This document shows positions 4,848 through 36,991 of a DNA stretch of 36,991 bases, piece after piece. The translations under genes were made by a program, and so were the position numbers. Where the stretch lies: IMG/VR virus record IMGVR_UViG_3300026512_000036, positions 1-36,991 of that record; one strand, 5' to 3'. Below the pieces are notes generated by a model. That model was not told where the DNA came from. It did no database searches and saw only the letters and a program-made list of their open reading frames with translations. This DNA comes from a virus. Within the stretch, counting starts at the first letter, position 1. Each line of letters starts with the position of its first letter.

Positions 4848-5537
4848 ATGATTCTCAAAAAGTTAAGTAAAACAGCATACAGAAAATTAGCAACAACTGC
4901 TGATACACGTCAAGTAGTTAATACTACATTAACTGGAGAATTCTCAGGATTATTTCCATTTCTTGCTACTGAACAGCGTAAAGTAACCCTTGATGAATAT
5001 AGTGCAGGTAAGTTAAGATTATTACATACACCAATATCCGTACAAGCTGTAACAATTATCACAGATAATCAAGTATTGATTAATCAGGATGCTACTGCTA
5101 CAACAGATAATGCAAACTTTAAAGTTGTGAATGATCTAGTCGGGTTTAAAAATAACGTTGACTTGTACGGTATAGTTACAGATAATTTAAATGAAGTTGT
5201 ACAAACTGATGATTTACTTACTATTGTATATCAATATAGCGTAGAGCAAAAGTATTATTCTTATACATTTGATATCGATAATACTGCTTATATGAATGGT
5301 TATGTCACATTACCAAAAGCAACAGCATTTCCAGAACATTGTATAGCGTTTATGAATAATGGTAGTATGCTATTAAACGCTTATCAAAGTTTCATTACTA
5401 ATGCTCAACCTGATTTTATAATTGTGCATGATAAGTTTGTATTCAAAAATAATGTAGATGTTGGATACTGTATAACTACTAACTTAAGCGAATTTATTCA
5501 AGACGGTGACACAATTACTGTAGTATTAATATACTAA
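4848..5537 (+). CDS. Structural protein made of two tandem module A copies, paralogue of the preceding gene
   Basis: Protein of 229 residues with the same architecture as the gene at 4155-4832: a short basic N-terminus (ILKKLSKTAYRKL), then two module A copies. Copy one (~residues 42-128) includes FKVVNDLVGFKNNVDLYG and ends VVQTDDLLTIVYQY. Copy two (~residues 135-229) starts YTFDIDNTAYMNGYVTLP, contains IVHDKFVFKNNVDVG and ends FIQDGDTITVVLIY. The shared FKNNV motif and the shared basic start make it a paralogue of its neighbour, produced by tandem gene duplication and divergence. SD GGAGA lies 9 bases before the ATG. Spacing of 15 bases from the upstream stop implies co-transcription. Role unknown; virion appendage inferred from context. 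Confidence 0.6.
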   Translation: MILKKLSKTAYRKLATTADTRQVVNTTLTGEFSGLFPFLATEQRKVTLDEYSAGKLRLLHTPISVQAVTIITDNQVLINQDATATTDNANFKVVNDLVGFKNNVDLYGIVTDNLNEVVQTDDLLTIVYQYSVEQKYYSYTFDIDNTAYMNGYVTLPKATAFPEHCIAFMNNGSMLLNAYQSFITNAQPDFIIVHDKFVFKNNVDVGYCITTNLSEFIQDGDTITVVLIY

Positions 5538-10197: not shown

Positions 10198-10587
10198 ATG
10201 AAATATAAAGAAACAATAGAAAAACATGGATTCTTATTTAAGAGAAAATATAAGCAAGAATTAAATAGTATCTCAGATACTAAAAAGGGTAAAGTCAGAG
10301 AACGTATTAATTCTGAATTATTTGATATAGAAGATAGCCTTGCTGATACCACTAAAATGTTGTTTTTAGTTATAGCAATGCTGAAAAGATTATATGATGC
10401 TAATTTTGACATTAGTCAGCTATCTCAGGATGATAAAGATATAATAGAATACGCTTTAAGTAAATATTCTAATACTACTACCTGGCTTGATGTTAAATTT
10501 AATGAGGAAGGAATAGCTCTCATAGATAAACTTGCTGAGAGACAAAATAATTTAGCTAATATCATTAAGGAGGTATATAATGGCTAA
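10198..10587 (+). CDS. Small helical protein upstream of the LamG fibre, possible fibre accessory
   Basis: Protein of 129 residues, unknown family. It is mainly helical and charged (KYKETIEKHGFLFKRKYKQE, then KGKVRERINSELFDIEDSLA and LAERQNNLANIIKEV). One moderately hydrophobic stretch (TKMLFLVIAMLKRL, ~residues 62-75) is too short and too charged at the end for a clear membrane helix. Its last codons overlap the start of the 778-residue lectin protein by 8 bases, and its 3' end (TAAGGAGGT) supplies that gene's SD, so the two are translationally coupled. Chaperone or partner for that protein is an inference from the coupling. Confidence 0.5.
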   Translation: MKYKETIEKHGFLFKRKYKQELNSISDTKKGKVRERINSELFDIEDSLADTTKMLFLVIAMLKRLYDANFDISQLSQDDKDIIEYALSKYSNTTTWLDVKFNEEGIALIDKLAERQNNLANIIKEVYNG

Positions 10588-12916
10588 ATTTAGAGCTAAT
10601 ACTGATGATGCTTATATTTTAACTAATATACAAAATCAAGAAAGCGGAGATAGTGATTGGGCTAAATATCAAGTTGTAACTAAAGATAAGTCAAGATTAA
10701 TTTTACATAATAATACAACTAATAGTTTATTAAAAGTTAACAAATATGGATATGCTACACAAGTTCATGATGTATTTAATGATGGCAGTGCTGTTGCCAC
10801 TTATACCTTCGATGGCAATGCTAATGATTTAGGTGGGAATTATAATGGAACATGGAGTGGAACTGAACAGTATGACACTGGAGTGTTTGGACAATCAGCG
10901 AAGTTTGATGGGAATAGTGTTATAGTAATTGATTTTGGGTTCAAATTACAATGTCCTTTTGTGTATACAGGATGGTTTAAACCAAATAAGACAGGAAGTA
11001 CTCAACAAGTTGTTTTCGGATGGGATTATAGTGGTGTCTCTAGTAGTTCAGAATTTGATTATCATTTTATTACGGACGACGAGGGAAATACCTGGTCTCT
11101 AAACACTGGGGCACATGGATCAGAAAATAAAACTCCTTCAATACAAGTTCCAGACAACACTTGGGTATTTTTCTATGTTGAGTTCAAATCGTCTGGAACT
11201 AGATTGATTTTAAAAGATATAAGTGGAAATTTATTAGGAGATGTAAGTAAAAGTGTAAGTATAACTCAGTCAATGAGCACTAAAGTAGCTTTAGGTGCTT
11301 GGATTTATGATATCAATGCATCTGGATTTTATAATTATTTTGATGGTCTCATCGACCAACTTCGCATCTTCAACCGTGCTCTAACTGAAGATGAAGTTAC
11401 TTTCTTGTATCACGAAGGTCTTACTCATATTCGTAAACATGATCAACTTATAATCTATAACGCTACTGATGGTGCTAAAATTCACGAAGTTAATACTATA
11501 ACTTATAACGATACTGATAAAACTTATGATATTGATATTTCTAGTTTATCTCTAACAGAAGCTCCAACTAATGCACATCAACTAACCAAATCGGTAGATT
11601 TAACTGACAAGATTGATACTTCGACTACTACTGCTACAACTTTAGTATTACAGGATGCTTTAGAAAATCCAACTTTAGTTAAAAACGGTGAAACTTTAGT
11701 AATAGACGGTTATAAACTAGAGAATATAAATGTAACTAGAAGTTTATATGGTGGAAGTGTTAAATATATTGTAGATATTTCTGAATTAAATTTTTCTCTT
11801 GTACCATCAGAAGTAGTTTTAATTAAGCCACGAGTAGAAATTTCTGTTGGTGATGAAGATAAAGCTAATGCAGATGATTTGGTGTTGGATATTTTAGATT
11901 CAACCACCGCTTCAATAACTGTAGGATATTATGAAGGCAGTAAACGAACACGAATTAAAAATGCAGAAAAAATAGATACTGATACTGGATTAGATTTATC
12001 TCTAATAGAAGTAGTAGAGGAATATTTAGATCCAACTAAAGTTGATCCTTTTAATGATGGTAGCGAAGTTGCCTTTTATCAATTAGATGGAAATGCTAAC
12101 GATGCTCATAATCAATATAACGGAATCTGGAGTGGAACTGAACAGTATGATACTGGAGTATTTGGTCAAGCTGCGAAGTTTGATGGTAATTCTACAATTT
12201 CTTGCGGAACATTTAATTTTAATTCTAATACAGGTGTTGCATTTACAATGTGGGTTCAAGTTCTTGAAAGTAGTGATGGTAGAGGAACGTGGTTTGAATG
12301 TTATAATGGTTTGTCTAATTTAACATTTGGAGGGAGTACTCCTGCACAGGATTATGGAATATGGATTAGTGGTGGTGGTGGTGAATATTTTTGGACTTCT
12401 TATTTTAAAGGGAAGGGTATTTGGAGTTTTTATATATTAAATATTCTTAATGATGGTTCTCTATACTTATATATAGATAGCAACACTAAATTGAATACTG
12501 GATTAACACTAAGTAATTTTAGTGATGTCGATGTTCATATATCATGGAATAATAATGGAGCGTCATACTATGGAAAAGATATTCTCATCGATCAAGTACG
12601 CATCTTCAACCGAGCTTTAACTGAAAATGAAGTTAAATATCTCTATAATGAAGGTAAATATAAATTCAATCTTAATCTACAATCTGAACAATCTTCAGCA
12701 CCAACTAAAGCTATCATAAGGCCGACTATTCAAGACATATTAGAACTTGACCCAAATAATACTGCTTATGATAATACAAATGATTTAGTAAGTGTATATT
12801 ATCAACCTATCCAAAAAGGAAACGGATTCAGGAGTGTTCAAGTGAAATGGAATGCTCATAGACAAGGGGATGAAAATAACAGTTTAAGAGTAAATCTGTG
12901 GAAAAAGGTGGCTTAA
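10580..12916 (+). CDS. Large virion protein with two LamG/concanavalin-like lectin domains
   Basis: Protein of 778 residues. Two LamG-like (concanavalin A-like) domains are visible. Domain one is ~residues 68-280, opening DGSAVATYTFDGNANDLGG and closing IDQLRIFNRALTEDEV..LYHEG. Domain two is ~residues 492-695, opening DGSEVAFYQLDGNANDAH and closing IDQVRIFNRALTENEV..LYNEG. Both contain WSGTEQYDTGVFGQ.AKFDGN, nearly identical also at DNA level, so the domains arose by internal duplication. Between them is a beta-rich region (~285-490). Such domains usually bind glycans, and in phages are found on fibres or capsid decorations. Translation is coupled to the preceding gene. It ends the cassette; a possible weak terminator follows. 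Lectin fold is confident; the ligand and position on the virion are inferred. Confidence 0.8.
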   Translation: MAKFRANTDDAYILTNIQNQESGDSDWAKYQVVTKDKSRLILHNNTTNSLLKVNKYGYATQVHDVFNDGSAVATYTFDGNANDLGGNYNGTWSGTEQYDTGVFGQSAKFDGNSVIVIDFGFKLQCPFVYTGWFKPNKTGSTQQVVFGWDYSGVSSSSEFDYHFITDDEGNTWSLNTGAHGSENKTPSIQVPDNTWVFFYVEFKSSGTRLILKDISGNLLGDVSKSVSITQSMSTKVALGAWIYDINASGFYNYFDGLIDQLRIFNRALTEDEVTFLYHEGLTHIRKHDQLIIYNATDGAKIHEVNTITYNDTDKTYDIDISSLSLTEAPTNAHQLTKSVDLTDKIDTSTTTATTLVLQDALENPTLVKNGETLVIDGYKLENINVTRSLYGGSVKYIVDISELNFSLVPSEVVLIKPRVEISVGDEDKANADDLVLDILDSTTASITVGYYEGSKRTRIKNAEKIDTDTGLDLSLIEVVEEYLDPTKVDPFNDGSEVAFYQLDGNANDAHNQYNGIWSGTEQYDTGVFGQAAKFDGNSTISCGTFNFNSNTGVAFTMWVQVLESSDGRGTWFECYNGLSNLTFGGSTPAQDYGIWISGGGGEYFWTSYFKGKGIWSFYILNILNDGSLYLYIDSNTKLNTGLTLSNFSDVDVHISWNNNGASYYGKDILIDQVRIFNRALTENEVKYLYNEGKYKFNLNLQSEQSSAPTKAIIRPTIQDILELDPNNTAYDNTNDLVSVYYQPIQKGNGFRSVQVKWNAHRQGDENNSLRVNLWKKVA
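10781..10918 (+). repeat. LamG domain repeat, copy 1 (opening segment)
   Basis: This segment encodes the start of the first LamG-like domain of the 778-residue protein. It is a direct DNA repeat of 12056-12193. The best-conserved stretch starts tggagtggaactgaacagta and continues through the codons for YDTGVFGQ. A second pair of similar segments encodes the domain ends (about 11341-11399 and 12575-12635, core cgcatcttcaaccg). The repeats give a substrate for recombination that could delete or add a lectin domain. Confidence 0.8.
12056..12193 (+). repeat. LamG domain repeat, copy 2 (opening segment)
   Basis: Second copy of the repeat at 10781-10918, encoding the opening of the second LamG-like domain in the same frame. 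The two copies differ mainly at third codon positions and in a few residues (NDLGGNYNG against NDAHNQYNG), which points to duplication followed by divergence under protein-level selection. Confidence 0.8.
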
Positions 12917-20183: not shown

Positions 20184-20854
20184 TAAAGTTACAATCATGG
20201 TTATCAAATAACAATATTTCACTTAGTACGATAATAGCACCAGACTTTGACTATAGTTGGTACAAATTCGTAAGCTCTCAACAGTGTACTATTGTCGAAA
20301 CAACAATACCGTATTCTCCTATTGACAAGAGTTTATGTCATCCACAATCAATATGTTTAGCACTTTTATATCCAGAAGAATTTGACTGGAATACTGATAT
20401 TTTATTCGGATATGTTGAATCTACAGATTCTGATGTTCATAATAAATTAAGTTATAAATTATCGATATATGCAAATCCAATTATCTTATGGCCAAATTCT
20501 AACGATATAAACTGTGATGACATTAACTTATGGAACGTAACTAATGATGATATAACCTTGCTCAATGCACTCAAACAACTTTACACCAACAATAATGTCA
20601 CGTTACCGGATTATGATTCACTCAATACAGTACTATCTAAACTAATCTGGATATTCTTAAACTATTGCATCAATGGAGACGTAAATATAGATAACTTAAG
20701 CGAACTGACACCACAAACGCTTTTAGAACTAGCATATCAAATTAAAGTATGTCATCATATATATGAGAGCGTTATAGTATCATCAACTACTATAGAGACA
20801 AGCTCTATAGTATCCTTAGCGGAGGATTATGAATACAACAGATTTATTCTTTAA
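20180..20854 (+). CDS. Unknown structural-region protein
   Basis: Protein of 224 residues. GTG at 20180 is chosen because GGAG at 20168-20171 is 8 bases upstream and the start overlaps the previous TGA; an earlier in-frame TTG at 20159 lacks a site. The N-terminus reads MIKLQSWLSNNNISLSTIIA and the C-terminal half is helical (LLNALKQLYTNNNVTLPDY, VLSKLIWIFLNYCINGDV). Cys residues are scattered without a zinc pattern. The 3' end overlaps the next gene by 26 bases and holds a 10-bp hairpin just before that gene's SD. Family and function not recognised. Confidence 0.5.
   Translation: MIKLQSWLSNNNISLSTIIAPDFDYSWYKFVSSQQCTIVETTIPYSPIDKSLCHPQSICLALLYPEEFDWNTDILFGYVESTDSDVHNKLSYKLSIYANPIILWPNSNDINCDDINLWNVTNDDITLLNALKQLYTNNNVTLPDYDSLNTVLSKLIWIFLNYCINGDVNIDNLSELTPQTLLELAYQIKVCHHIYESVIVSSTTIETSSIVSLAEDYEYNRFIL
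20788..20814 (+). promoter_or_regulatory. Hairpin with conserved 3' tail before the 707-residue baseplate gene
   Basis: 10-bp stem tactatagag / ctctatagta (20788-20797 and 20803-20812), loop acaag, followed by tccttagcggagg and the ATG at 20829. A near copy, actatagaaacgagctctat then agtattcttaac, lies before the membrane-protein gene at 26754. The tail shared by both is agtatycttarc. It lies inside the coding end of the upstream gene. Its position just before the SD suggests translational control or RNA processing. Confidence 0.55.
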
Positions 20855-23644: not shown

Positions 23645-25498
23645 ATGGCTATACATATTGTTCCAGGAGTTTACTCCACGATAGTCGATTTATCGACTTA
23701 TGTACAACAAGTACCATCAACTATAGGATTTGTCGCATTCTTAAGTGACTATGGCGAAGATAATAAATTAAAGTTTAAATCTAGTCAAGAAGAGTTATTT
23801 AAAGAATACGGTAAGCCAAATATTAATACCTATGGTAAAGAGTTTGGACAAGGTTTATACATTGCTAATAATTTCATTGTACAATCTGGAAGTGAATATG
23901 TAATGAGAGTTCTCCCTGAAGATGCTACATATGCTAACTTGAAATTTTACATTGATTCCAACAATTTACTTAAACTGGAGGCTGATACCAATATCAATTC
24001 TGTTGAAGAAATTGGGACAAGATTAGTTGATCCTTCAAAGAAAGTCATATACATTATTGTTCCTATTGGGCGTGGTGATGCATATAATGAATTTTCCGTA
24101 AACATTACACCTTCTCTCACTGATAGTGAAGCATATGTTTTAGACGTATATAGAAAAACAGCTGATGGTGATGACGTAATATCAGAGTCTTTTACTGTCA
24201 GCTTTAATCCTACTAAAACTGATTCGTCTGGTGAATCAATGTTTATTGTAGATGTACTTAAAAGATATAGTCAATATCTCAGAATTTACGTAAACGAAAC
24301 TAATTTATCTGAACTTAATACATTAGCTACTGAAACAGTAATTGATTATACTGATACACCTCCCTCCAGTCCATCCGCTAACGATAAATACTTAGTTGCT
24401 GATGGTGCTACTGGTGATTGGCAAAATCATGATGGTGAAATAGCTATTTATGACGGATCTACATGGACATTTAGTAGTCCAGCACAAGGTATGGTCGTAA
24501 AAGTAGAAGCTACTGATACTAGATACTATTATACTGGTGATGTATGGCAAGTATTTGAACCATATTCTTGTGTATATACATCAACATCTTCAGATAATCA
24601 TAGCTATAAGAAACTTGGTAATGGTAGTGTAGGTTCATTACTAAATTCTGATGGAACAGTTAATGCAACAGTTGCTACTCAAATTTTAGCACAAGCATAT
24701 AGTGGTCTTATTGATGACTTAGTAGTTGACAAAGATAAAGTATATTTTAACATGGTATGGGATGCTGGATATCCTACTGAAGTTAAAAACAGTATTGTGG
24801 ATCTAGTTAGCAATTTAAGGAGAGACTGTTTCGGATTTGTAGATAACGGAGATAATCCAACTGCAGAAGCTGCTCTACAAAAACGAAAAACTGATCATGC
24901 ATGGAATACACCATACGCAGCATTATACGAACAATATACAGAAGTATATGATGAATTTACAGGACGTGATATATGGGTAAGTCCTATGTATCATATGTCT
25001 ACAATAGTTCCAAAATTAGATCGTACAGGTGAAATATGGTTTGCTCCAGCTGGTTTAAATAATGCTGTTATTGATTGTAAAAGAATGCGTTATAATCCAA
25101 AAGAAGGTCATAAAGAGCAATTCTATCTGAACAGAATAAACTACTTTGTTGAATTCAATGTTGGTATATGTGTATGGCAAGATCTGACAATGCAGGTTAA
25201 GTCTTCTAAACTGGAAAATATTCCAGTTGTTCGTATGGTTCTTTATGCACAAAGAGCGTTAGACCGCTTTTGTAAATTTTATATTTATGATCAAGCTGAT
25301 GAGATTACATTTGATAATATCAAATCTGAAATAATCACGTTCTTATCTGATTTAAAAAGACGTAGAGCTCTAAAATCTTTTGATGTAAAAGTATATCAAA
25401 CTCCATATGATGTAAAGACTAAAACTATTAGAGTTGATGTAATACTTGAACCAATTCTGCCAATTGAAAAGATTGAACTTACATTCTTTATTAAATAA
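23645..25498 (+). CDS. Tail sheath protein with a DUF2793-like insert
   Basis: Contractile sheath subunit of 617 residues. The start is typical: IHIVPGVYSTIVDLSTYV, then STIGFVAFLSDYGED and ..LFKEYGKPN. A central cassette has RKTDHAWNTPYAALY, WVSPMYHMSTIVPKLD and GEIWFAPAGLNNAVIDC. The C-terminus is the interlocking-strand domain (LVKS-type 'QRALDRFCKFYIYDQADEI', FLSDLKRRRALKSFDVKVY, ILPIEKIELTFFIK). Residues ~232-306 are an inserted DUF2793-like module (TPPSSPSANDKYLVADGAT, WQNHDGEIAIYDGSTW, RYYYTGDVW), a unit common in fibres, which probably protrudes from the sheath surface. SD AGGAGG. Sheath is certain by family hallmarks; the outward position of the insert is inferred. Confidence 0.92.
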   Translation: MAIHIVPGVYSTIVDLSTYVQQVPSTIGFVAFLSDYGEDNKLKFKSSQEELFKEYGKPNINTYGKEFGQGLYIANNFIVQSGSEYVMRVLPEDATYANLKFYIDSNNLLKLEADTNINSVEEIGTRLVDPSKKVIYIIVPIGRGDAYNEFSVNITPSLTDSEAYVLDVYRKTADGDDVISESFTVSFNPTKTDSSGESMFIVDVLKRYSQYLRIYVNETNLSELNTLATETVIDYTDTPPSSPSANDKYLVADGATGDWQNHDGEIAIYDGSTWTFSSPAQGMVVKVEATDTRYYYTGDVWQVFEPYSCVYTSTSSDNHSYKKLGNGSVGSLLNSDGTVNATVATQILAQAYSGLIDDLVVDKDKVYFNMVWDAGYPTEVKNSIVDLVSNLRRDCFGFVDNGDNPTAEAALQKRKTDHAWNTPYAALYEQYTEVYDEFTGRDIWVSPMYHMSTIVPKLDRTGEIWFAPAGLNNAVIDCKRMRYNPKEGHKEQFYLNRINYFVEFNVGICVWQDLTMQVKSSKLENIPVVRMVLYAQRALDRFCKFYIYDQADEITFDNIKSEIITFLSDLKRRRALKSFDVKVYQTPYDVKTKTIRVDVILEPILPIEKIELTFFIK

Positions 25499-26711: not shown

Positions 26712-26740
26712 ACTATAGAAACGAGCTCTATAGTATTCTT
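26712..26740 (+). promoter_or_regulatory. Hairpin with conserved 3' tail before the 109-residue membrane protein
   Basis: 8-bp stem actataga / tctatagt (26712-26719 and 26727-26734), loop aacgagc, followed by attcttaacaaggagcaac and ATG 26754. It matches the element at 20788-20814 in stem, spacing and tail (agtatycttarc). A weaker relative (gctat/atagc, tail ttagtattctttagc) precedes the 25560 gene. The element lies in a 48-base gap, so here it is not constrained by coding. Confidence 0.55.
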
Positions 26741-28159: not shown

Positions 28160-28353
28160 CACCAACTCGTGTATTAAGTACATATCAGACATAACGTACC
28201 TCCCTTTCTTTTTGCACAAGTCGGTAACAGCTGTCATGTTGCTGACTTGTGCGCACTTCTTTCTATCCTGCCACATATCATGCCATACATTTCTTCTAAG
28301 CATTTGATCCACTAACACATAAAAAACATTAACTCGTAAAAGGAGGTGTTTAC
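28160..28353 (+). promoter_or_regulatory. 194-base structured leader: strong hairpin and anti-Shine-Dalgarno
   Basis: No gene supported here. At 28214-28252 lies a 16-bp hairpin: gcacaagtc / gacttgtgc perfect, then ggt/gct with two G-U pairs, then aaca/tgtt, loop gctgtca. Upstream, gtacctccctttc (28196-28208) contains acctcc at 28198-28203, complementary to ggaggt at 28342-28347 in the SD (aaaaggaggt). With flanking wobbles and one bulged C it gives about 11 pairs. The hairpin lies between the two partners and would bring them together, so the SD can be hidden. Regulation of the downstream gp26-like gene is inferred. Confidence 0.6.
28214..28252 (+). promoter_or_regulatory. 16-bp RNA hairpin in the leader of the gp26-like gene
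   Basis: The longest near-perfect inverted repeat I found in the window. It has no T run after it (gcacttctttc), and the run of T before it excludes a minus-strand terminator. It does not fold as a tRNA (no acceptor, D or T arms). Confidence 0.7.
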
Positions 28354-29145
28354 ATGTTACCAAATTTCAGTTACCCCGTTTATACTGTTGTATGTCCACA
28401 GTCCAAGTACACTTATGACGTAAGATGTTTAGTTGTTGGAGACGAAGATAGATTACTACAATCTTCTACATTTGCATATAGTGTACTAGATAATATCAAC
28501 AAAGTTATTTGGAGTTGTATTGTTAATAAACCCGATCACATTACAGACTTTAATGCATTTTTAGCTAATACTACACAAAAAGATAGAGATGCCTTTGTAT
28601 ATTCTATACTGCAAGCCTCAGATGAAGACAAACAAGTAATAGATGTTACATGTGCATATTGTGGAACTAAACAAACGGTTGAAGTGAGCCTAGAATCGTG
28701 TTTTAATGCAAACATATATCCTGGTGAACCTGGTGAAATGATTAACAATGTTGTTGATGTTAATGTAGAGCTAAAAAATCATATCGTTAATGCTAAGCTT
28801 AAAGTTCCAACATTAGCTAAAGAAAAAGAAATATTTTATCATTTTGGTCAAAGAAATTTACCATTACATGTTCTAACATTATTACTACATATATCTGAAT
28901 TAAACATTATCGATAAAAAGACAGATAAACCTGTTCAAGAAGCAAAGATACTTCCAGATATTGAAGCAACATTAGTGCCATTGCCTCATAAGGTAAGACG
29001 TAAATTGACTAAAGCAATTTCTGATAATTTTGCACAGTATGGCATGAATCTGCAATATAAATTTTTCTGTTCAAAACCAGATTGTGGCAAAGAAAATATT
29101 CATGAATTAGATGTAACAGACTTGCTTTTTCGCACCATTATCTGA
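28354..29145 (+). CDS. gp26-like baseplate/tail-assembly protein with zinc ribbon
   Basis: Protein of 263 residues resembling the T4 baseplate-protein family (PF12322, T4 gp26-like): YTVVCPQSKYTYDVRCLVVG, a helix NINKVIWSCIVNKPDHITDF, TQKDRDAFVYSILQASDEDK. C100 and C103 (CAYC) with C239 and C244 (CSKPDC) could form a zinc site; such ribbons are frequent in this family. The frame ends at TGA 29143-29145, but a coding frame continues in +1 without a start, suggesting a frameshifted longer product. The SD AAAAGGAGGT is very strong yet may be masked by the leader. T4 gp26 works in hub assembly; a chaperone role for the pair is inferred. Confidence 0.68.
   Translation: MLPNFSYPVYTVVCPQSKYTYDVRCLVVGDEDRLLQSSTFAYSVLDNINKVIWSCIVNKPDHITDFNAFLANTTQKDRDAFVYSILQASDEDKQVIDVTCAYCGTKQTVEVSLESCFNANIYPGEPGEMINNVVDVNVELKNHIVNAKLKVPTLAKEKEIFYHFGQRNLPLHVLTLLLHISELNIIDKKTDKPVQEAKILPDIEATLVPLPHKVRRKLTKAISDNFAQYGMNLQYKFFCSKPDCGKENIHELDVTDLLFRTII
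29125..29133 (+). other. Candidate +1 programmed frameshift site (CTT TTT CGC)
   Basis: Zero-frame codons are CTT TTT CGC. With TTT in the P site and the CGC codon in the A site, the Phe tRNA can slip one base forward and pair with TTC, as UUU and UUC share one tRNA. The next codon is then GCA, in the frame that runs to TAA 29336-29338. The zero-frame stop lies only 12 bases beyond. The +1 frame is closed upstream at TAA 29114-29116, so slippage must occur in the short window between. Confidence 0.5.
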
Positions 29146-29338
29146 TCCTGAAGCTAGAGACAAGTTTGAAAGAGATAGATGCATGAACATCATGTTCATG
29201 ATGCAAGAACTGCATCAATCATATGAATCTATACTAGCAATGCCTGTATACAGATTTAAACGAATTATTGACTTAAAACTTAAACAGCTTGAAAAGCTAA
29301 ATAAGAAACTTGAAGAGATCACAAAAGACATGTCTTAA
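29132..29338 (+). CDS. +1-frame extension of the gp26-like protein (or separate 51-residue ORF from 29183)
   Basis: The +1 frame reads APLSDPEARDKFERDRCMNI, then MFMMQELHQSYESILAMPVY, RFKRIIDLKLKQLEKLNK, KLEEITKDMS. It looks like real protein (amphipathic, charged helices) already before its first ATG at 29183, and has no ATG, GTG or TTG between the closing TAA and that ATG, so start by frameshift from the upstream gene is the simplest reading; the fusion would be ~327 residues. Alternatively the ATG at 29183 starts a 51-residue protein with a weak SD (agag). Small helical C-terminal extensions made by frameshifting are known for tail-assembly chaperones (lambda gpG/gpGT, a -1 shift). Equivalence here is inferred. 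Confidence 0.55.
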   Translation, partial: APLSDPEARDKFERDRCMNIMFMMQELHQSYESILAMPVYRFKRIIDLKLKQLEKLNKKLEEITKDMS

Positions 29339-29343
29339 AGCTA

Positions 29344-29417
29344 TTATTCGATGTCTATATAGTCTATTTATTCAAACAACATGAACATTTGCATATGCTC
29401 GGTTATTCAATGGAGAG
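29344..29417 (+). repeat. 74-nt leader repeat (plus copy), upstream of gp25-like gene
   Basis: Matches the reverse complement of 35788-35862. Block 1 ttattcgatgtctatatag (29344-29362) is identical in both; then an 8-nt variable part; block 2 ttcaaacaaca (29371-29381) identical; two mismatches; block 3 of 34 nt (29384-29417) identical, including the palindrome gcatatgc, then ctcggttattcaatggagag. The last bases (ggagag) are the SD of the 29424 gene. See also the minus copy. Confidence 0.85.
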
Positions 29418-29423
29418 ATTATC

Positions 29424-29864
29424 ATGGCCATTAAAATAGCAGGATATGATCCTGATAGACTTTTTGCTAAAAACGATAAAATAATCGGATATGATAGAAA
29501 AATTGTACAAAATGATTTTAAGCAATTGTACGGTAAAGAAGTAGTTTTACAATGCGCTAATTCTATATTGTCCACTCCAAGAGGAGTTCGATTAAAAGAT
29601 TGTTCATTCGGCAGTGAGCTTTATAAATACGTATATAGTCCTTGTGACGAAGAAACTGCACAAGCTATTAGAGAAGAAATTATTAGATCCTTTGAAGAAC
29701 AAGATGAACGGTTAAAAGTGAAATTCGTTACCGTCTTATTTCATGGTGCTAATAAAGGATTTACGGTAAATGTGTCGTTAGCATTACCAAGTGGCAAAAA
29801 ATACGAAACTCAAGTTGTTATTACTCCAGAAACATTCACGTTTCTTAAGTCTGTAGGGAGCTAG
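29424..29864 (+). CDS. gp25-like baseplate wedge protein
   Basis: Protein of 146 residues, near T4 gp25 length. It has the GPW/gp25 family pattern: CANSILSTPRGVRLKDCSFG, then SELYKYVYSPCDEETAQAIR and EEIIRSFEEQDERLKVKFVT (the family shows L.T..G.R...P.FG..L...L..P.D......I...I...I...EPR). gp25 joins the wedge to the sheath start and triggers sheath contraction. Its leader is the 74-nt repeat shared with a minus-strand hub-like gene. Next comes the 210-residue protein, then a gp6/J-like wedge, similar to the T4 order gp25-gp6-gp53. Identification is confident. Confidence 0.85.
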   Translation: MAIKIAGYDPDRLFAKNDKIIGYDRKIVQNDFKQLYGKEVVLQCANSILSTPRGVRLKDCSFGSELYKYVYSPCDEETAQAIREEIIRSFEEQDERLKVKFVTVLFHGANKGFTVNVSLALPSGKKYETQVVITPETFTFLKSVGS

Positions 29865-29868
29865 AATT

Positions 29869-30501
29869 ATGGAATCGTATAGCAGATTTTTCGAATATAT
29901 GAAACAGTCTAATAAATTAGTATACGATTACTATGCTTCACATGCACAGTCCTGTCTATGTATATACTTCAATATTAACAAAGAACAAAGCATATATGAT
30001 AACGATAAACTTGATGGTGGAAGCTATGAATTCTATGGTTCTGCCAGCGGTATAAGATATACAAAAATCATGCTATTACCAGTGTACTTTGTAGAACCAA
30101 TTCAGCCAACATATAGTGCTGAAGAACGTGGTTATATACATGAAACTACAAGTTCAATTGTTATACCATCATCCTATAACATTATTCCATATGAACATGA
30201 TCTAGTATATTTTCCATCAGAGCTTAATCCCTCAACTAAATATCCTGTTTACGAGGTTATAGGTATAGAGAAATCTACTGATACTCAAGTCACCATGTGG
30301 AAATGTAACATTCGAAGTGCACGAACAAGTTATAACGTAATTGACGACCAAGTTGTCGAAACAAAAGTATGGTTCGAACCAACAAAGACAATTTTATCTG
30401 CAGAATCGGCATTAAATGCTTACAAACTCATGGACATTAAAACACGCAATATAGAGCAACTTAAAGGATACTATCATGTATCGGGACTTTTTATTTCTTG
30501 A
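29869..30501 (+). CDS. Baseplate-region structural protein, unknown family
   Basis: Protein of 210 residues, not recognised. Beta-rich (SYEFYGSASGIRYTKIMLLP, HDLVYFPSELNPSTKYPVYE, VIGIEKSTDTQVTMWKCNIR) with a helical C-terminus (ALNAYKLMDIKTRNIEQLK). The 'DLVYFP...YPVYEV.GI...' segment resembles small baseplate/neck adaptor proteins that describe a stop edge, but this is weak. It begins 4 bases after gp25 and overlaps the next gene by 26 bases, so it belongs to the wedge operon. A wedge or neck adaptor is the best guess. Confidence 0.5.
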   Translation: MESYSRFFEYMKQSNKLVYDYYASHAQSCLCIYFNINKEQSIYDNDKLDGGSYEFYGSASGIRYTKIMLLPVYFVEPIQPTYSAEERGYIHETTSSIVIPSSYNIIPYEHDLVYFPSELNPSTKYPVYEVIGIEKSTDTQVTMWKCNIRSARTSYNVIDDQVVETKVWFEPTKTILSAESALNAYKLMDIKTRNIEQLKGYYHVSGLFIS

Positions 30502-30679
30502 ACGGAAACTAAGTCCATTTTATATCAAGCATTATATAACATCACTATACGACTATGACAATAAAATGCCATATATCCTTGGTCATATGCTCAAGCGGCT
30601 AACACAAATAGCATCATATGCTAATACTCAATTAATACCACACTTCGATAAGGGAGTATTTCATGTCACAACTAAGTGA
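30476..30679 (+). CDS. Small 67-residue protein between wedge genes
   Basis: Protein of 67 residues: MYRDFLFLERKLSPFYIKHY, then MPYILGHMLKRLTQIASYAN. Overlaps the preceding gene by 26 bases and the following by 17, and has AAAGGA before its ATG. The tight double overlap and intact frame support it as real. Basic and aromatic-rich, no signal or membrane helix. Possibly a small baseplate or assembly factor; no family recognised. Confidence 0.5.
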   Translation: MYRDFLFLERKLSPFYIKHYITSLYDYDNKMPYILGHMLKRLTQIASYANTQLIPHFDKGVFHVTTK

Positions 30680-33191
30680 TAAAGTCAAAGTATTTACTTC
30701 ATACGATAATATCAGACTTCAAGTCATAGACTTATTGTTATCGGATTTAGGGCTATCTGAAACTGATTTACATAGAGGCACATTTGTCTCTTACATGATA
30801 GATATGTTATCGTTCCTAACTAGCAATCTTATGTTCTATAGTGGTATGTCATATCAAGAAGCTTTCATGACATTAGCACAGCTTCCTGAATCCGTATATA
30901 ACTTGTCTGCATTCTTGGGCTATAAACCGCAAAATGCAAGACCATGTGAATGTGATGTGCTAATACAAATACCATTAGGTGATATATCTGATGCTGTCAC
31001 TATAGCATTTCAACAAGATCATGCGTTTAATGCTGGAGATATTAAATACAGATTAAAATATAAAGTAGAAGTCACAATAGATAATGCAAACAATCATTAT
31101 TCTGTTACAGTTATTGATCCTAATAATGGTGTCATATATAATTTACCGTACATCATCCAAAATAATAAACTTACATTTACCGTATCAACTGTTCAACAAG
31201 ATAAACTAGAATTTAATATCGTATCGAATCCAATAAAACAAATATATACATTCAGCAGATATCCAATTGATTTTGAACATCAATTAGCAGATGTAGAAGT
31301 CTACGTCAATGATGAACCTTGGAATCAATTTGATTCTGTATACTTAATGAGAGCATCTGATCCAGGATATGTAGTAAGAACTACTGAAACTGGTGCCATA
31401 ATAATGTTTGGTAACGGTATTTTTGGTAAGCAACCACCACCGTCAAGTTCAATTAAAGTGATAGCATATGTCACATTGGGTGAAGATGGTAAAATTGTAG
31501 CTGGTGCTATTAAACGTGGTGATAGAATATACTACGATACTCCACAAGGTCGTAAACAATTGTTGTATGAATGTACAAATCCGTCATCTTCAATTGGTGG
31601 TCAAAATATAGAAAGTATTGATGATGTCAGACATAACGCATTAATTAATATGCAAGCACAAAAAAGATTAGTTAGTAGATATGATTATTCGAACTTTGCA
31701 ACTATTACAAAATTTCCATTTCATGATACAATATCCATTCTGAAAAGATCTGACTTGAAATGTAATGAAGTAGCTCTATATTCAATCTTTAACTTTAACA
31801 ATGATATCGTTCCTACACGTACTATTTTAGTTAGCGGTAAACTAAGTGATATGCATTTAATGCCGTTAACAGAATTAACATATGATGGAGAAACGTATTA
31901 CAACTTATTTGAGTACAGTCCTCAAATCAATAGCAAATTTGTAATGACGTACTACTATGCTAATTCTGTGATGTTTGTACCTACTGTTGTAAATAGTGCA
32001 TTACAGCAAGATGATATTGTCGTTACAAAAGGGTATATTAACGTTGACACAAGTACTCAGATTGCAACAATTGAACTATACGTGCAAGTTGATGACTTGT
32101 CCAATTATGAAACTGTACTACGAATTAAAAAAGATGATTTTGACATATCATACACTATGAATAATCAAGAAGTACAGAATGTTAAGAAATTTTACATTAG
32201 TATTCCTCTTCATGAAATACCATCATCAACATTACAATTTTATTTCATAATACGAAACGTAAATACTGATGTTCAAGTTTACTATTTAAGCACACAACAA
32301 ATCGTCAAACAATCATTAGAAGAAGTTTGTTTTTCAAACTTTGTATGGTTAACTGATAATGCTTATATCACAGAAGAAGACGAAATTTTATATCCTGTTC
32401 CTGTTGTCAAAAAAGATTGGTATGACAATTTATTAGAAGAAGAACGAAGTGCATTCAATACATCACTCATAAACAAATTTGTCAGTCAGTCAGCGTCAAT
32501 TTATAGAATGACTAATTCAGCGGTTAATATTCAGTTTGGTAACACATATGGTAAGCTAACAAATATGGAGCATAATAAAACATCATTCAATGTTCGAACA
32601 ATGTCATTACTAGAACCTCCTAACGACGTTACTGTAAATGATACATTTGTCGTAGCAGCATTTGGTGATAAAATAATAGATACATCAAATCCATGGTATG
32701 GTCAAGAAAAAAAGATTGCTAAATGCATTAACGATAATCCAGTTGAATGGTCATTCATTGACCCTTCACTATCCACCATCGTACTAAATAATGAAGACGA
32801 TAAGAAGTATATATGGAATGGTGATAAATGGTTTGATGTAACGTCATTACAGCTACCGTTAACTATAGAACTAGAAGTATTTACAGATCCACAATATCAA
32901 AGTTCTGGTAACATAGCCACTGAAGTTAAAAATATACTATATGACTATTTCTCTAGTCAGTTCGGTTTATTGAAACCATTATTTAGAGCAGAGCTTATTC
33001 GTATAGCACAATCAGTTCCAGGTGTTGTTTACTGTAGAGTAAATAAACCAGAATTTGATATATTCTTCAATTTTAAAATTAGTGATTTATCGGCTGATAA
33101 ATTATTTGAATTTGTTCCAGACTACATATACTTTACACCGGATAACATTCACATCATAACAAATGTATATTCAGCATCAGTAGAGGAATAA
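30663..33191 (+). CDS. Baseplate wedge protein, gp6/J-like, with a DUF2793-like insert
   Basis: Protein of 842 residues. The N-terminus matches T4 gp6-like wedges (LHRGTFVSYMIDMLSFLTSN, LMFYSGMSYQEAFMTLAQLP, ESVYNLSAFLGYKPQNARP). Around residues 247-275 is IIMFGNGIFGKQPPPSSSI, the baseplate-J signature G.G..G..P..G. and V.Y....G. Residues ~650-728 are a DUF2793-like module (LLEPPNDVTVNDTFVV, then CINDNPVEWSFID and KYIWNGDKWFDV), like those in the sheath and in the 14557 fibre. The C-terminus (IRIAQSVPGVVYCRVNKPE) has the gp6/J VPGV motif. It is expected to dimerise and form the wedge ring. Confident family; the insert is a match by eye. Confidence 0.82.
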   Translation: MSQLSDKVKVFTSYDNIRLQVIDLLLSDLGLSETDLHRGTFVSYMIDMLSFLTSNLMFYSGMSYQEAFMTLAQLPESVYNLSAFLGYKPQNARPCECDVLIQIPLGDISDAVTIAFQQDHAFNAGDIKYRLKYKVEVTIDNANNHYSVTVIDPNNGVIYNLPYIIQNNKLTFTVSTVQQDKLEFNIVSNPIKQIYTFSRYPIDFEHQLADVEVYVNDEPWNQFDSVYLMRASDPGYVVRTTETGAIIMFGNGIFGKQPPPSSSIKVIAYVTLGEDGKIVAGAIKRGDRIYYDTPQGRKQLLYECTNPSSSIGGQNIESIDDVRHNALINMQAQKRLVSRYDYSNFATITKFPFHDTISILKRSDLKCNEVALYSIFNFNNDIVPTRTILVSGKLSDMHLMPLTELTYDGETYYNLFEYSPQINSKFVMTYYYANSVMFVPTVVNSALQQDDIVVTKGYINVDTSTQIATIELYVQVDDLSNYETVLRIKKDDFDISYTMNNQEVQNVKKFYISIPLHEIPSSTLQFYFIIRNVNTDVQVYYLSTQQIVKQSLEEVCFSNFVWLTDNAYITEEDEILYPVPVVKKDWYDNLLEEERSAFNTSLINKFVSQSASIYRMTNSAVNIQFGNTYGKLTNMEHNKTSFNVRTMSLLEPPNDVTVNDTFVVAAFGDKIIDTSNPWYGQEKKIAKCINDNPVEWSFIDPSLSTIVLNNEDDKKYIWNGDKWFDVTSLQLPLTIELEVFTDPQYQSSGNIATEVKNILYDYFSSQFGLLKPLFRAELIRIAQSVPGVVYCRVNKPEFDIFFNFKISDLSADKLFEFVPDYIYFTPDNIHIITNVYSASVEE

Positions 33192-33195
33192 TTAC

Positions 33196-34095
33196 ATGAA
33201 CGAGCTTCATAAAACGTTACAGTTCATATTCTTGAGAGAATTACCACAGTTATCTGATATTTGTTATTATCCATCTATGAATCAATATCTTCCTAAACTA
33301 AGGAAAGTTGTAGATGAAACAGATGTTACGTTCAAAAAAGACTTCAAAATGTTGAAGAATGAAGTCACTGCTATATTGTTACATATAATTCAGACTAGTA
33401 ACGATATCGATATTTTACTGCTTGCATATAAAGTACTTACGTTGCATATATACGGAATTTTAATGCGAAAATTTATTAGATTTTGTGATAAGGCACGATT
33501 AAGAATGGCATTAGATAAGTTACATGGTAAGCATTTGTTCAAACGGATGGGCATAGAAAAGGCATTGTTATATACAGCGGAGAGAATATACAAACGATAT
33601 GAAAAAGCAAGAACGGAAGAAGAAGTCATAAAAATGTTTCTTGAGCTAAGGACAGCATTAGCTCAAATGATCAGAGCATTAGCTAGACGATATTATGCAC
33701 TAACACCTGAAGACATAAAACAACATGAAGAACAACTCAATAGAAAGTTAGCACCTATAATTGTTAAAAGCATTCAACACCAAACTTTTCCACAATGTCT
33801 AGAATATGCAGTCACTAATATGTCACCAATCAATGTTCAAGATGTTGTTTACTGTATTAAACAACTGCAGTCAAATTCCATTCAGCTGCAAGACTTCTTT
33901 ATTTTACTATTATCGGGTGTCACAAAAAAGACACAATTATGTTCAGTACTATGGCAAAAAAGCAGACTTAAATTGATTACAAACAAATCAGCATTATATA
34001 CATATTTACATAACATATTTAAACATAGTAATATTAACTTATATATCGCTCTCACCAAATATTATCTTTGCGTAATTAAACAACTGTTCTGTTAG
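33196..34095 (+). CDS. Helical protein of unknown function
   Basis: Protein of 299 residues, strongly helical and basic in the middle (RKFIRFCDKARLRMALDKLH, ERIYKRYEKARTEEEVIKMF, MIRALARRYYALTPEDIKQH). No membrane segment or catalytic motif. Its last 20 bases overlap the 3' end of the minus-strand gene (34076-35758), so the two operons converge. It begins 5 bases after the J-like gene. It might be a baseplate or tail-assembly protein, or a scaffold; no family recognised. Confidence 0.55.
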   Translation: MNELHKTLQFIFLRELPQLSDICYYPSMNQYLPKLRKVVDETDVTFKKDFKMLKNEVTAILLHIIQTSNDIDILLLAYKVLTLHIYGILMRKFIRFCDKARLRMALDKLHGKHLFKRMGIEKALLYTAERIYKRYEKARTEEEVIKMFLELRTALAQMIRALARRYYALTPEDIKQHEEQLNRKLAPIIVKSIQHQTFPQCLEYAVTNMSPINVQDVVYCIKQLQSNSIQLQDFFILLLSGVTKKTQLCSVLWQKSRLKLITNKSALYTYLHNIFKHSNINLYIALTKYYLCVIKQLFC

Positions 34096-35758
34096 ACGCC
34101 CTGCCCAAGACTCTCCTCTCTGATTCATCCAATCCATAATCCGCTAATACATTAGCAGATGCGTTTACATCGTTATCTGTGATATTTGGATAATCCTCCC
34201 GTAATCTTAGTGCTAATTTTGGACGCAATGAATTAGCTACATCACGTCTAGCATATGGCCTGAGTGTAGATGGATCTAAGTGAGCTAATGATGCTCTAAT
34301 GGCATCATCAGGATTTGGTTGTGATAATGATCGTGTTGATATATCACGCAAACTTCTATTTAAAAACCTACTATCTGTTGGATTATTCATAAGTATATTT
34401 GCTAGTTGGCTATTACTTTGTCTGTTTACAATAGTTCGTGTTTGTAATTGCTCCAGCAGCGGAGAAGTTCTGGACGAACCTGTCGTTAACTCTGCTAGTA
34501 AAGACCTGCTTCTTAATAAACTAAGACCACGCTCATAGTCTCTAAGTAACGACTGTGTATGAGAACTCTGTAACATATTGTGCATGTCATTAACTAAATC
34601 ACTATCTGGATTGTTAATACTTTCAGGAAGATTGTTCTGTAAATATGAATTGAATTGTTGCATATTTAAAGTTGTGCTAGCTTGAGCTACATCAGTTGGC
34701 AAAGTTGTTGTAGGTGTTGCTGGCTGATTAGATGGAGTTGGTGGTGTCAATGTAGCTAATTTAAACTCAAATCCTTTTACTTCTCTTGGTGTTGCCATTG
34801 TAGCTAAATAGTCTACAATATTCGTTTGTTGTCCATTACCACCTAGCATAGTACTAAATAAATCTATTAACGTAATACGAACATCAACAATTGCAGGAAT
34901 TTGATTAAAGGCTATTGCTATTGTGTCACCACCTTTTATGACTGCTATATCTGCAAATGCACCATATTTCAGTTTAAATAATCCAGGTGCATATGCTTTG
35001 CAAAAGAATGGCCAATCATATGTAAATCCATCATCACTGTATGGTACTACAAATAGTAACAATGTGGCTAATGGTGTAATAACATGCTTAAACGTAGAAT
35101 TAACGTCTCCTGGATTAGGATTGTATAATCTAATAGTAAACGAATATGAAGTTGAATAATTAGAGTCTCTCCATACTTTTGGAAATTCTATTTTATGACC
35201 CTGGAATAAATTAGCTATAGCTCTAGTAGATTGATTACCACCCATAGCTTGTTCTAGCGCAGCACCAGCACTAGTGACTTGCCCAGCTATACCTAATAAC
35301 GTGTCAAGAAAAAAGCCACCACCTTTTTGCTTAGCATTTTGCTTCATTTGTTGAATTTTTGCATTTAATTCTTCGATATTACGAATGCCCATAATTTGTC
35401 TCAATTCATTTATACCACCACCCACAGCATTTGTGATTCTACTAACAAATGATTCATCGTATTGATTAGTAAATTGCTCCGATATTGGTGTATCAACGAT
35501 AGCATGTATCTGAATTGGCCATGATATACTAGGAGGACTACCAGCTCCACATTCTGAAGCAACTTGACCAAGAACGCTATTTAATCGAGTATTAAATTGA
35601 GCAGTAGCATCTCGTAATGTATATAATTGAGGACCTGTTTGTGTATTAGGAACACATGCATTGACCTGTATTGTGTAAAATGAACTGTCCATTATATCTT
35701 GATAAATGGATTCATCACCATTTACTTTAGATGGTGCTGGAACTCCTATTTTATACAT
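34076..35758 (-). CDS. Putative tail hub or tube-initiator structural protein (minus strand)
   Basis: Protein of 560 residues on the minus strand. Residues ~195-315 contain PKVWRDSNYSTSYSFTIRLY, NPNPGDVNSTFKHVITPLAT, then FKLKYGAFADIAVIKGGD and VDVRITLIDLFSTML. This is a layout seen in hub or tail-terminus proteins of large contractile phages, where a 'V.V...F..L' strand closes a beta domain. Before it is a Gly-rich helical segment (KQKGGGFFLDTLLGIAGQV). After ~residue 340 come a P/T-rich linker (LTPPTPSNQPATPTTTLP) and a helical, low-complexity C-terminus. Its leader carries the minus copy of the 75-nt repeat. It follows the tape-measure-like gene. Hub or gp48/54-like is inferred, not shown. 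Confidence 0.5.
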   Translation of the reverse strand: MYKIGVPAPSKVNGDESIYQDIMDSSFYTIQVNACVPNTQTGPQLYTLRDATAQFNTRLNSVLGQVASECGAGSPPSISWPIQIHAIVDTPISEQFTNQYDESFVSRITNAVGGGINELRQIMGIRNIEELNAKIQQMKQNAKQKGGGFFLDTLLGIAGQVTSAGAALEQAMGGNQSTRAIANLFQGHKIEFPKVWRDSNYSTSYSFTIRLYNPNPGDVNSTFKHVITPLATLLLFVVPYSDDGFTYDWPFFCKAYAPGLFKLKYGAFADIAVIKGGDTIAIAFNQIPAIVDVRITLIDLFSTMLGGNGQQTNIVDYLATMATPREVKGFEFKLATLTPPTPSNQPATPTTTLPTDVAQASTTLNMQQFNSYLQNNLPESINNPDSDLVNDMHNMLQSSHTQSLLRDYERGLSLLRSRSLLAELTTGSSRTSPLLEQLQTRTIVNRQSNSQLANILMNNPTDSRFLNRSLRDISTRSLSQPNPDDAIRASLAHLDPSTLRPYARRDVANSLRPKLALRLREDYPNITDNDVNASANVLADYGLDESERRVLGRASNRTVV

Positions 35759-35787
35759 AACTACACCCTCTCTTTAAAAATTCGACC

Positions 35788-35862
35788 CTCTCCATTGAAT
35801 AACCGAGCATATGCAAATGTTTTTGTTGTTTGAATATAATTATCTATATAGACATCGAATAA
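35788..35862 (-). repeat. 75-nt leader repeat (minus copy), upstream of the hub-like gene
   Basis: Reverse complement of the 29344-29417 element with the same block order and only the middle 8-9 nt and two bases different. On this strand an additional 8-bp pair, cgagcata (35876-35869) with tatgctcg (35811-35804), brackets most of the repeat; the first arm lies just upstream of the repeat and is absent from the plus copy. The element sits between the stop of the tape-measure-like gene (35879) and the hub gene start (35758), in a 120-base gap. Likely a shared promoter or RNA control element. Confidence 0.85.
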
Positions 35863-35878: not shown

Positions 35879-36991
35879 TTAAATATCAGCATGAAAAGGA
35901 CTTGATCCTCTATGAACAACAGTAGATCCACCGTTTTGAGCAACATTTGCTACACTTGGTGCATTTACTATAGTAGCCGCTACTGTATTTACAGTTTGTT
36001 GCATCTGTTGCATAGATTTTTGTGCTGTAGTCTTTAAATGCCTAGCAGACTGAGCTAATGCTTTACTTGTCTTAGCTTGCATTTCAGTTTCTGGTTTCGG
36101 CTGTTCAGTTGCTTTCTTAGTTTCTTCTGCATTTGGTTGCAAATATGATACATGTCGTCTTACAACTTGTTCTATACCGTTCGGTAAAACTTTAGCTAAT
36201 GTATTGAGAGCAACTGATGCACCTTTACCTACAATTGGAATTTTAGTTATTGGAGACAATATCTTGAATAGTATAATAAATGGAGATGCAGCTAAAAATA
36301 GTAACGCTTTCTTGATAGCTCTAGCAACATCTTTCATTTTATCTATGATAACTTTAAATACTTCTCGTACTGGTTCCGTAATGTCTTTGATTTTATTGAC
36401 GAACTTAGTAAACTTTTCTGACAAACCCTTGCCCATAGATTTAAATTTTTCATATACAGATTTCGATATATCACCAATCTTAATCATTATATCAAGACTA
36501 CCACGTATAACTTTGTCCATAAAAGTTTGTGACTCATCAACTTTCTTCAGTAAACCCTTCTTTTCCATTTCAAGCTCTTCTTTTCGAGTCTGAATGGATT
36601 CCTTTACAGTTCTATAAAATGTTACAAGTGTTTTAGCTGGATCCCACCATCCTAAAAATGCTCGTTTTAGCGTTCCTGACTTGCTTAATTTCTTCTCCCA
36701 TTCTTTAGTTAATTCTTCATGAGTGATAGATTTGTATCCACTCCAAGCCATAATTGGAGCAGAAATAAGACCAGGTACTGCTGCAAACTTACCAACTTTA
36801 CCGACTAATCTAGCAGCTCCAGCAACTACTTTAGCAATACCTTTGCCTCCAAGTTTAGCTACACCACCTACAGCTTTAGCAGCTAATTTTAATGGTCCAC
36901 CAATCAGTCTAGCTAACTTACCTGTAATTCCTTCCGCTTCAGCAACTCCTTTACCCCATCCAGTAACAGCTTGACCAGCAGTAGCTAGACC
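35879..36991 (-). CDS. Probable tape-measure or internal tail protein, C-terminal part (5' end outside window)
   Basis: The frame is open to the right edge, giving at least 370 residues. An internal ATG at 36751 is not taken as start because the coding pattern continues upstream (VVAGAARLVGKVGKFAAVP, GGVAKLGGKGIAKV). This N-terminal visible region is Ala/Gly/Lys-rich, and a hydrophobic segment (LLFLAASPFIILFKI) follows at about residues 225-245, then GKGASVALNTLAKVLP. Helical charged regions (KDITEPVREVFKVIIDKM, FKSMGKGLSEKFTKFVNK) and a Gln/Thr/Met-rich C-terminus (TAQKSMQQMQQTVNTVAA) fit a tape-measure C-terminus. It precedes the hub-like gene, a normal position for a tape measure. Other internal virion proteins are possible. 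Confidence 0.5.
   Translation of the reverse strand, partial: GLATAGQAVTGWGKGVAEAEGITGKLARLIGGPLKLAAKAVGGVAKLGGKGIAKVVAGAARLVGKVGKFAAVPGLISAPIMAWSGYKSITHEELTKEWEKKLSKSGTLKRAFLGWWDPAKTLVTFYRTVKESIQTRKEELEMEKKGLLKKVDESQTFMDKVIRGSLDIMIKIGDISKSVYEKFKSMGKGLSEKFTKFVNKIKDITEPVREVFKVIIDKMKDVARAIKKALLFLAASPFIILFKILSPITKIPIVGKGASVALNTLAKVLPNGIEQVVRRHVSYLQPNAEETKKATEQPKPETEMQAKTSKALAQSARHLKTTAQKSMQQMQQTVNTVAATIVNAPSVANVAQNGGSTVVHRGSSPFHADI

Follow-up and report, generated by a model that had tools for sequence, protein, structure and literature searches.

Two near-identical leaders before baseplate wedge and hub-like genes of an AR9-related phage as a probable duplicated late promoter

Our analysis of a 36,991-nt stretch of DNA from an uncultured giant-phage relative (the window) revealed a non-coding leader that occurs twice, on opposite strands, upstream of two tail genes. 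Sequence comparison suggests, with a probability of roughly two in three, that both copies represent a duplicated late promoter together with the start of its 5′ UTR. Switches of this kind have been described in phage AR9, and the occurrence of two near-identical extended copies is unusual.

Copy A (29344..29417, plus strand, 74 nt) is flanked by a small ORF on one side and a gp25-like baseplate wedge gene on the other (29424..29864, plus; PF04965, E 9.9e-7; phrog_43, E 1.3e-11). Copy B (35788..35862, minus strand) lies between a tape-measure-like gene truncated at the contig end to its C-terminal portion (35879..36991, minus; phrog_4070, E 2.3e-6) and a hub-like virion structural gene (34076..35758, minus; phrog_20401, E 5e-24), which is homologous, by tblastn and synteny, to the gene after the tape-measure-like gene in phages BpSp and S6. 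The aligned copies were 91% identical over 78 nt, and shuffled sequences gave 0 chance matches for the 3′ block of the leader; the identity is far beyond chance and confirms the near-identity seen in an earlier note on this DNA. That note had described three shared exact blocks of 19, 11 and 34 nt. Their order and the two outer blocks (TTATTCGATGTCTATATAG, 19 nt; AACATTTGCATATGCTCGGTTATTCAATGGAGAG, 34 nt) stand, and the middle block (TATTCAAACAACA) is 13 nt long. Both copies had been said to end at or beside the SD; this holds for the plus copy alone, because on the minus strand the shared GGAGAG precedes the hub ATG by about 30 nt and this ATG has an SD of its own. The copies form inverted repeats 6.4 kb apart, and the two units downstream, previously taken for divergent operons, are convergent, since they run toward each other with overlapping 3′ ends (33196-34095 and 34076-35758). 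Further copies before other structural genes would, according to the note, have supported a promoter or regulon; the 37-kb window contained no third or intermediate copy, and a weight-matrix scan of it found no weaker copy near the two in score.

The leader is kept in relatives of the phage. The IMG/VR contig L003 (93% identical over 14.6 kb) carries both copies, and the IMG/VR contig L007 (82% identical) carries the copy before the gp25-like gene and stops inside the hub gene. Since these independent contigs carry the leader, an assembly duplication, once raised as an alternative, is excluded. The comparison comprised five copies from three genomes, all of them phage fragments. From -26 to +20 of the predicted transcription start, a core was defined (29369..29414, plus, in copy A; 35791..35836, minus, in copy B) in which 38 of 46 columns were invariant among the five copies. 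The core of L007 copy A was identical to that of window copy A at 43 of 46 positions (93%) and to that of window copy B at 45 of 46; L003 copy A was more diverged (41/46). Fourfold-degenerate sites in six compared genes were 56-73% identical between the window and L007. The core has therefore been better preserved than silent sites, indicating selection or conversion between the copies, in agreement with the earlier view that the leader is under selection or was recently copied.

The 34-nt block opens with AACA-TTTGCA-TA. The consensus of AR9 late promoters is AACA-(6N)-TA/G, the final base of which is the transcription start (PMC5312081), and the block fits this consensus. AACA-N6-TA was present in all five leader copies, with the spacer TTTGCA in each except L003 copy A, which has CTTCCA. 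The motif at 29384..29395 (plus) lies at -40 from the ATG of the wedge gene and places the predicted start at A29395; that at 35810..35821 (minus) lies 63 nt from AACA to the hub ATG and places it at A35810. AR9 late promoters likewise have this motif and spacing 30-60 nt before structural genes. The polymerase footprints published for AR9 extend from -35 to +20 on the template strand and from -29 to +17 on the non-template strand (PMC9209446), and the leader core is close to them in span; the two phages also share related sheath, hub and post-sheath genes. The spacer here is less AT-rich than those of AR9, and recognition by a polymerase is a prediction. Since the motif occurred by chance in 6-11% of single shuffled leaders, the match alone constitutes moderate evidence. 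The case for a promoter is built on the match taken together with kinship, position and the extent of conservation.

Kinship was apparent in searches with the sheath, hub, post-sheath and DnaB genes, which placed the phage near AR9, PBS1, BpSp, phiR1-37, S6 and the uncultured phage G002 (268 kb); these relatives were the first or among the best matches for the four genes. Uracil-DNA and two polymerases have been listed for members of this group, and several of the best sheath relatives are uracil-DNA phages (PMC7598289). Each of the six records of 150 kb or longer with a hub homologue encoded an RNA polymerase beta-like protein. We counted AACA-N6-T[AG], in the sense orientation, in the intergenic DNA upstream of genes called by a simple script, and compared the counts with those expected from the genome-wide rate. 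The motif was enriched 2.7- to 10-fold in seven related phages, with observed versus expected counts of 78 vs 15 in AR9, 59 vs 9.6 in phiR1-37, 62 vs 10.4 in BpSp, 22 vs 5.3 in S6 (140 kb), 20 vs 7.4 in G002, 12 vs 2.6 in G004 and 6 vs 0.6 in G005, and its distribution peaked 30-59 nt before the start codon. G003, which matches the window in the hub gene only, showed no enrichment (8 vs 5.9). In AR9, 34 of 48 hand-chosen virion genes had the motif within 150 nt upstream, compared with 11% of random 150-nt windows. The motif was absent from the gap between tape measure and hub genes in S6 and from the 150 nt scanned upstream of the AR9 hub orthologue, which follows a 17-nt gap. The transcriptome study of phiR1-37 gave no late promoter consensus (PMC5312081); despite this, the motif was about sixfold enriched upstream of its genes. 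These sequence counts point to the AR9 late motif as a general feature of the clade, phiR1-37 included.

We therefore agree with the earlier suggestion of a phage-specific late promoter, given the motif in every copy, its enrichment across the clade and the footprint-like core. Both leaders would be copies of one late-promoter cassette serving a non-virion RNA polymerase that the phage itself would encode; the bases recognised would be AACA at -11 to -8 and T/A at -1/+1. Transcripts starting at the two predicted positions would have 5′ UTRs of 29 nt (29395..29423, plus, with the SD GGAG) and 52 nt; the plus transcript would read gp25 and its wedge neighbours and the minus transcript the hub-like gene, toward each other. 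We infer that transcription from both would be late and that wedge and hub would be co-regulated. The identity from -51 to +23 would have arisen when the promoter region was duplicated or copied, and the part contacted by the polymerase (-26 to +20) would be maintained by selection or conversion between the copies. Several observations count against a late promoter. The motif is short, and in its exactly spaced form it precedes few other genes of the window: counting copies A and B, upstream intergenic DNA had 5 instances against 1.5 expected, while AACA alone is in excess there (23 vs 9.8). No polymerase gene was found in the 37-kb window, and the gp25-like and gp6-like genes match cyanophages and T4-like phages, not AR9.

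The extent of the shared leader is unusual. AR9 late promoters share the short motif only, whereas the two copies here share 74 nt; among late-motif leaders of relatives the best pair had 54 of 80 positions in common and the mean was about 32 of 80, compared with 65 of 80 without gaps for the L003 pair. Late leaders of relatives are thus alike in little beyond the motif, so the polymerase alone need not explain the 74 shared nucleotides. In the relatives examined we saw no late leader that was both extended and duplicated. phiR1-37 and G002 have repeated upstream leaders; those inspected mostly contain terminator-like hairpins and AT-rich motifs, and none has the late motif. In G002 the repeated upstream leaders are long, up to about 130 nt, with 74-80% identity.

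Comparison with phiKZ raises the possibility, which we consider rather improbable, that the leader is an extended sequence-specific late promoter (-26 to +20, with a conserved downstream element) combining the AR9 AACA-N6-TA with the phiKZ TATG, the duplication of which would equalise the transcription output of wedge and hub. Late promoters of phiKZ carry T-3 A T G+1, and four of the five leader copies have TATG where transcription is predicted to start. Late promoter activity in phiKZ requires downstream DNA (PMC4666361); the downstream DNA of the leaders here is likewise conserved. Unlike in phiKZ, TATG is not strictly kept, since L003 copy B has TATA, whereas AACA-N6-TA is. TATG was also not enriched upstream of the genes of the window, and we rejected it as the defining signal.

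It is unlikely that the leader is an intergenic repeat of mobile or recombinogenic nature, or an inversion pair, that stands before the two genes by chance and has no promoter role. The inverted arrangement of the copies would fit such a repeat, and both the relatives and the same phages have repeated upstream leaders, in the latter case a hairpin. However, the place and orientation of the leader are identical in all genomes where they are visible, each copy directly precedes a gene, and conservation exceeds that of silent sites. Pattern searches of IMG/VR and GTDB found no viral contig with the leader beyond L003 and L007, and a near-identity DNA search of phages gave no match. Two GTDB pattern matches were discarded as leader copies; they come from bacterial contigs unrelated to the window. 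In T4-type phages, mobile regulatory cassettes are repeated non-coding promoter stem-loops that precede genes. The leaders here are likewise repeated, non-coding and placed before genes, but they have no conserved stem and number only two. A mobile or inversion repeat may be the origin of the second copy of the leader.

Somewhat less likely again is a structured 5′ leader RNA, acting in translational control or like a riboswitch, that couples wedge and hub synthesis. The first 20 nt or so of the predicted UTR are indeed conserved, a motif has been predicted in AR9 late UTRs (PMC5312081), and a small hairpin can form upstream both in L007 and in L003 copy A. Single leaders, however, folded no better than shuffles (z-scores 0.44, -0.74, 0.60 and -0.65), RNAalifold found no conserved fold and no compensatory change in any of 11 pairs of the five-copy alignment, and Rfam gave no match to the leader above the gathering threshold. 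The two structural elements proposed earlier are not conserved: the palindrome GCATATGC is replaced by CCATATGC in L003 copy A and by GCATATAC in L003 copy B, and the minus copy's outer stem of 8 bp is disrupted in L003 copy B (TATACTCG), and the A copies lack its left arm. These results argue against a translation-control RNA. Least likely of all is that TATATAG in the first block, which occurs at -39 to -33 in four of five copies, serves another promoter (early virion-polymerase, T4-like late or host sigma-70), because L003 copy A has CTCTTTAG at this position, which also led us to reject an early promoter there, no sigma-70-like match uses TATATAG, the AR9 early motif differs (PMC5312081), and the best-conserved part of the leader lies downstream.

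Other features of the window were also observed. A second family of repeated leaders, the hairpin ACTATAGAGACAAGCTCTATAGT, lies shortly before genes at 20789-20811 and 26712-26734, and in L007 at 5239-5259 and 5409-5430 (minus), in a segment of L007 with no alignment to the window. The region 28354-29338 contains a candidate programmed +1 frameshift at ATC-TGA-TCC (UGA at 29143-29145), which would fuse a T4_baseplate-like ORF with a 3′ extension; in L003 and L007 the +1-frame peptide before the first ATG of the extension is conserved, most of its changes being conservative. The T4_baseplate-like gene is preceded by a 194-nt gap, which contains a strong terminator-like hairpin of 17 pairs (28213-28253). 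The tail sheath protein (23645-25498) has a DUF2793 domain ahead of its sheath parts, and the ORF at 10580-12916 has internal repeats (10768-12655) about 1.2-1.3 kb apart, suggesting a duplicated domain.

This study also bears on promoter choice in giant phages. The late promoters that these phages read with their own multisubunit polymerases have been defined by very short motifs, and the missing specificity in phiKZ is unexplained. A promoter copied near-intact within one genome and kept in relatives shows which bases are conserved beyond the short motif. If the extended form of the promoter is true, it would show the contribution of downstream DNA to promoter choice by the non-virion polymerase.
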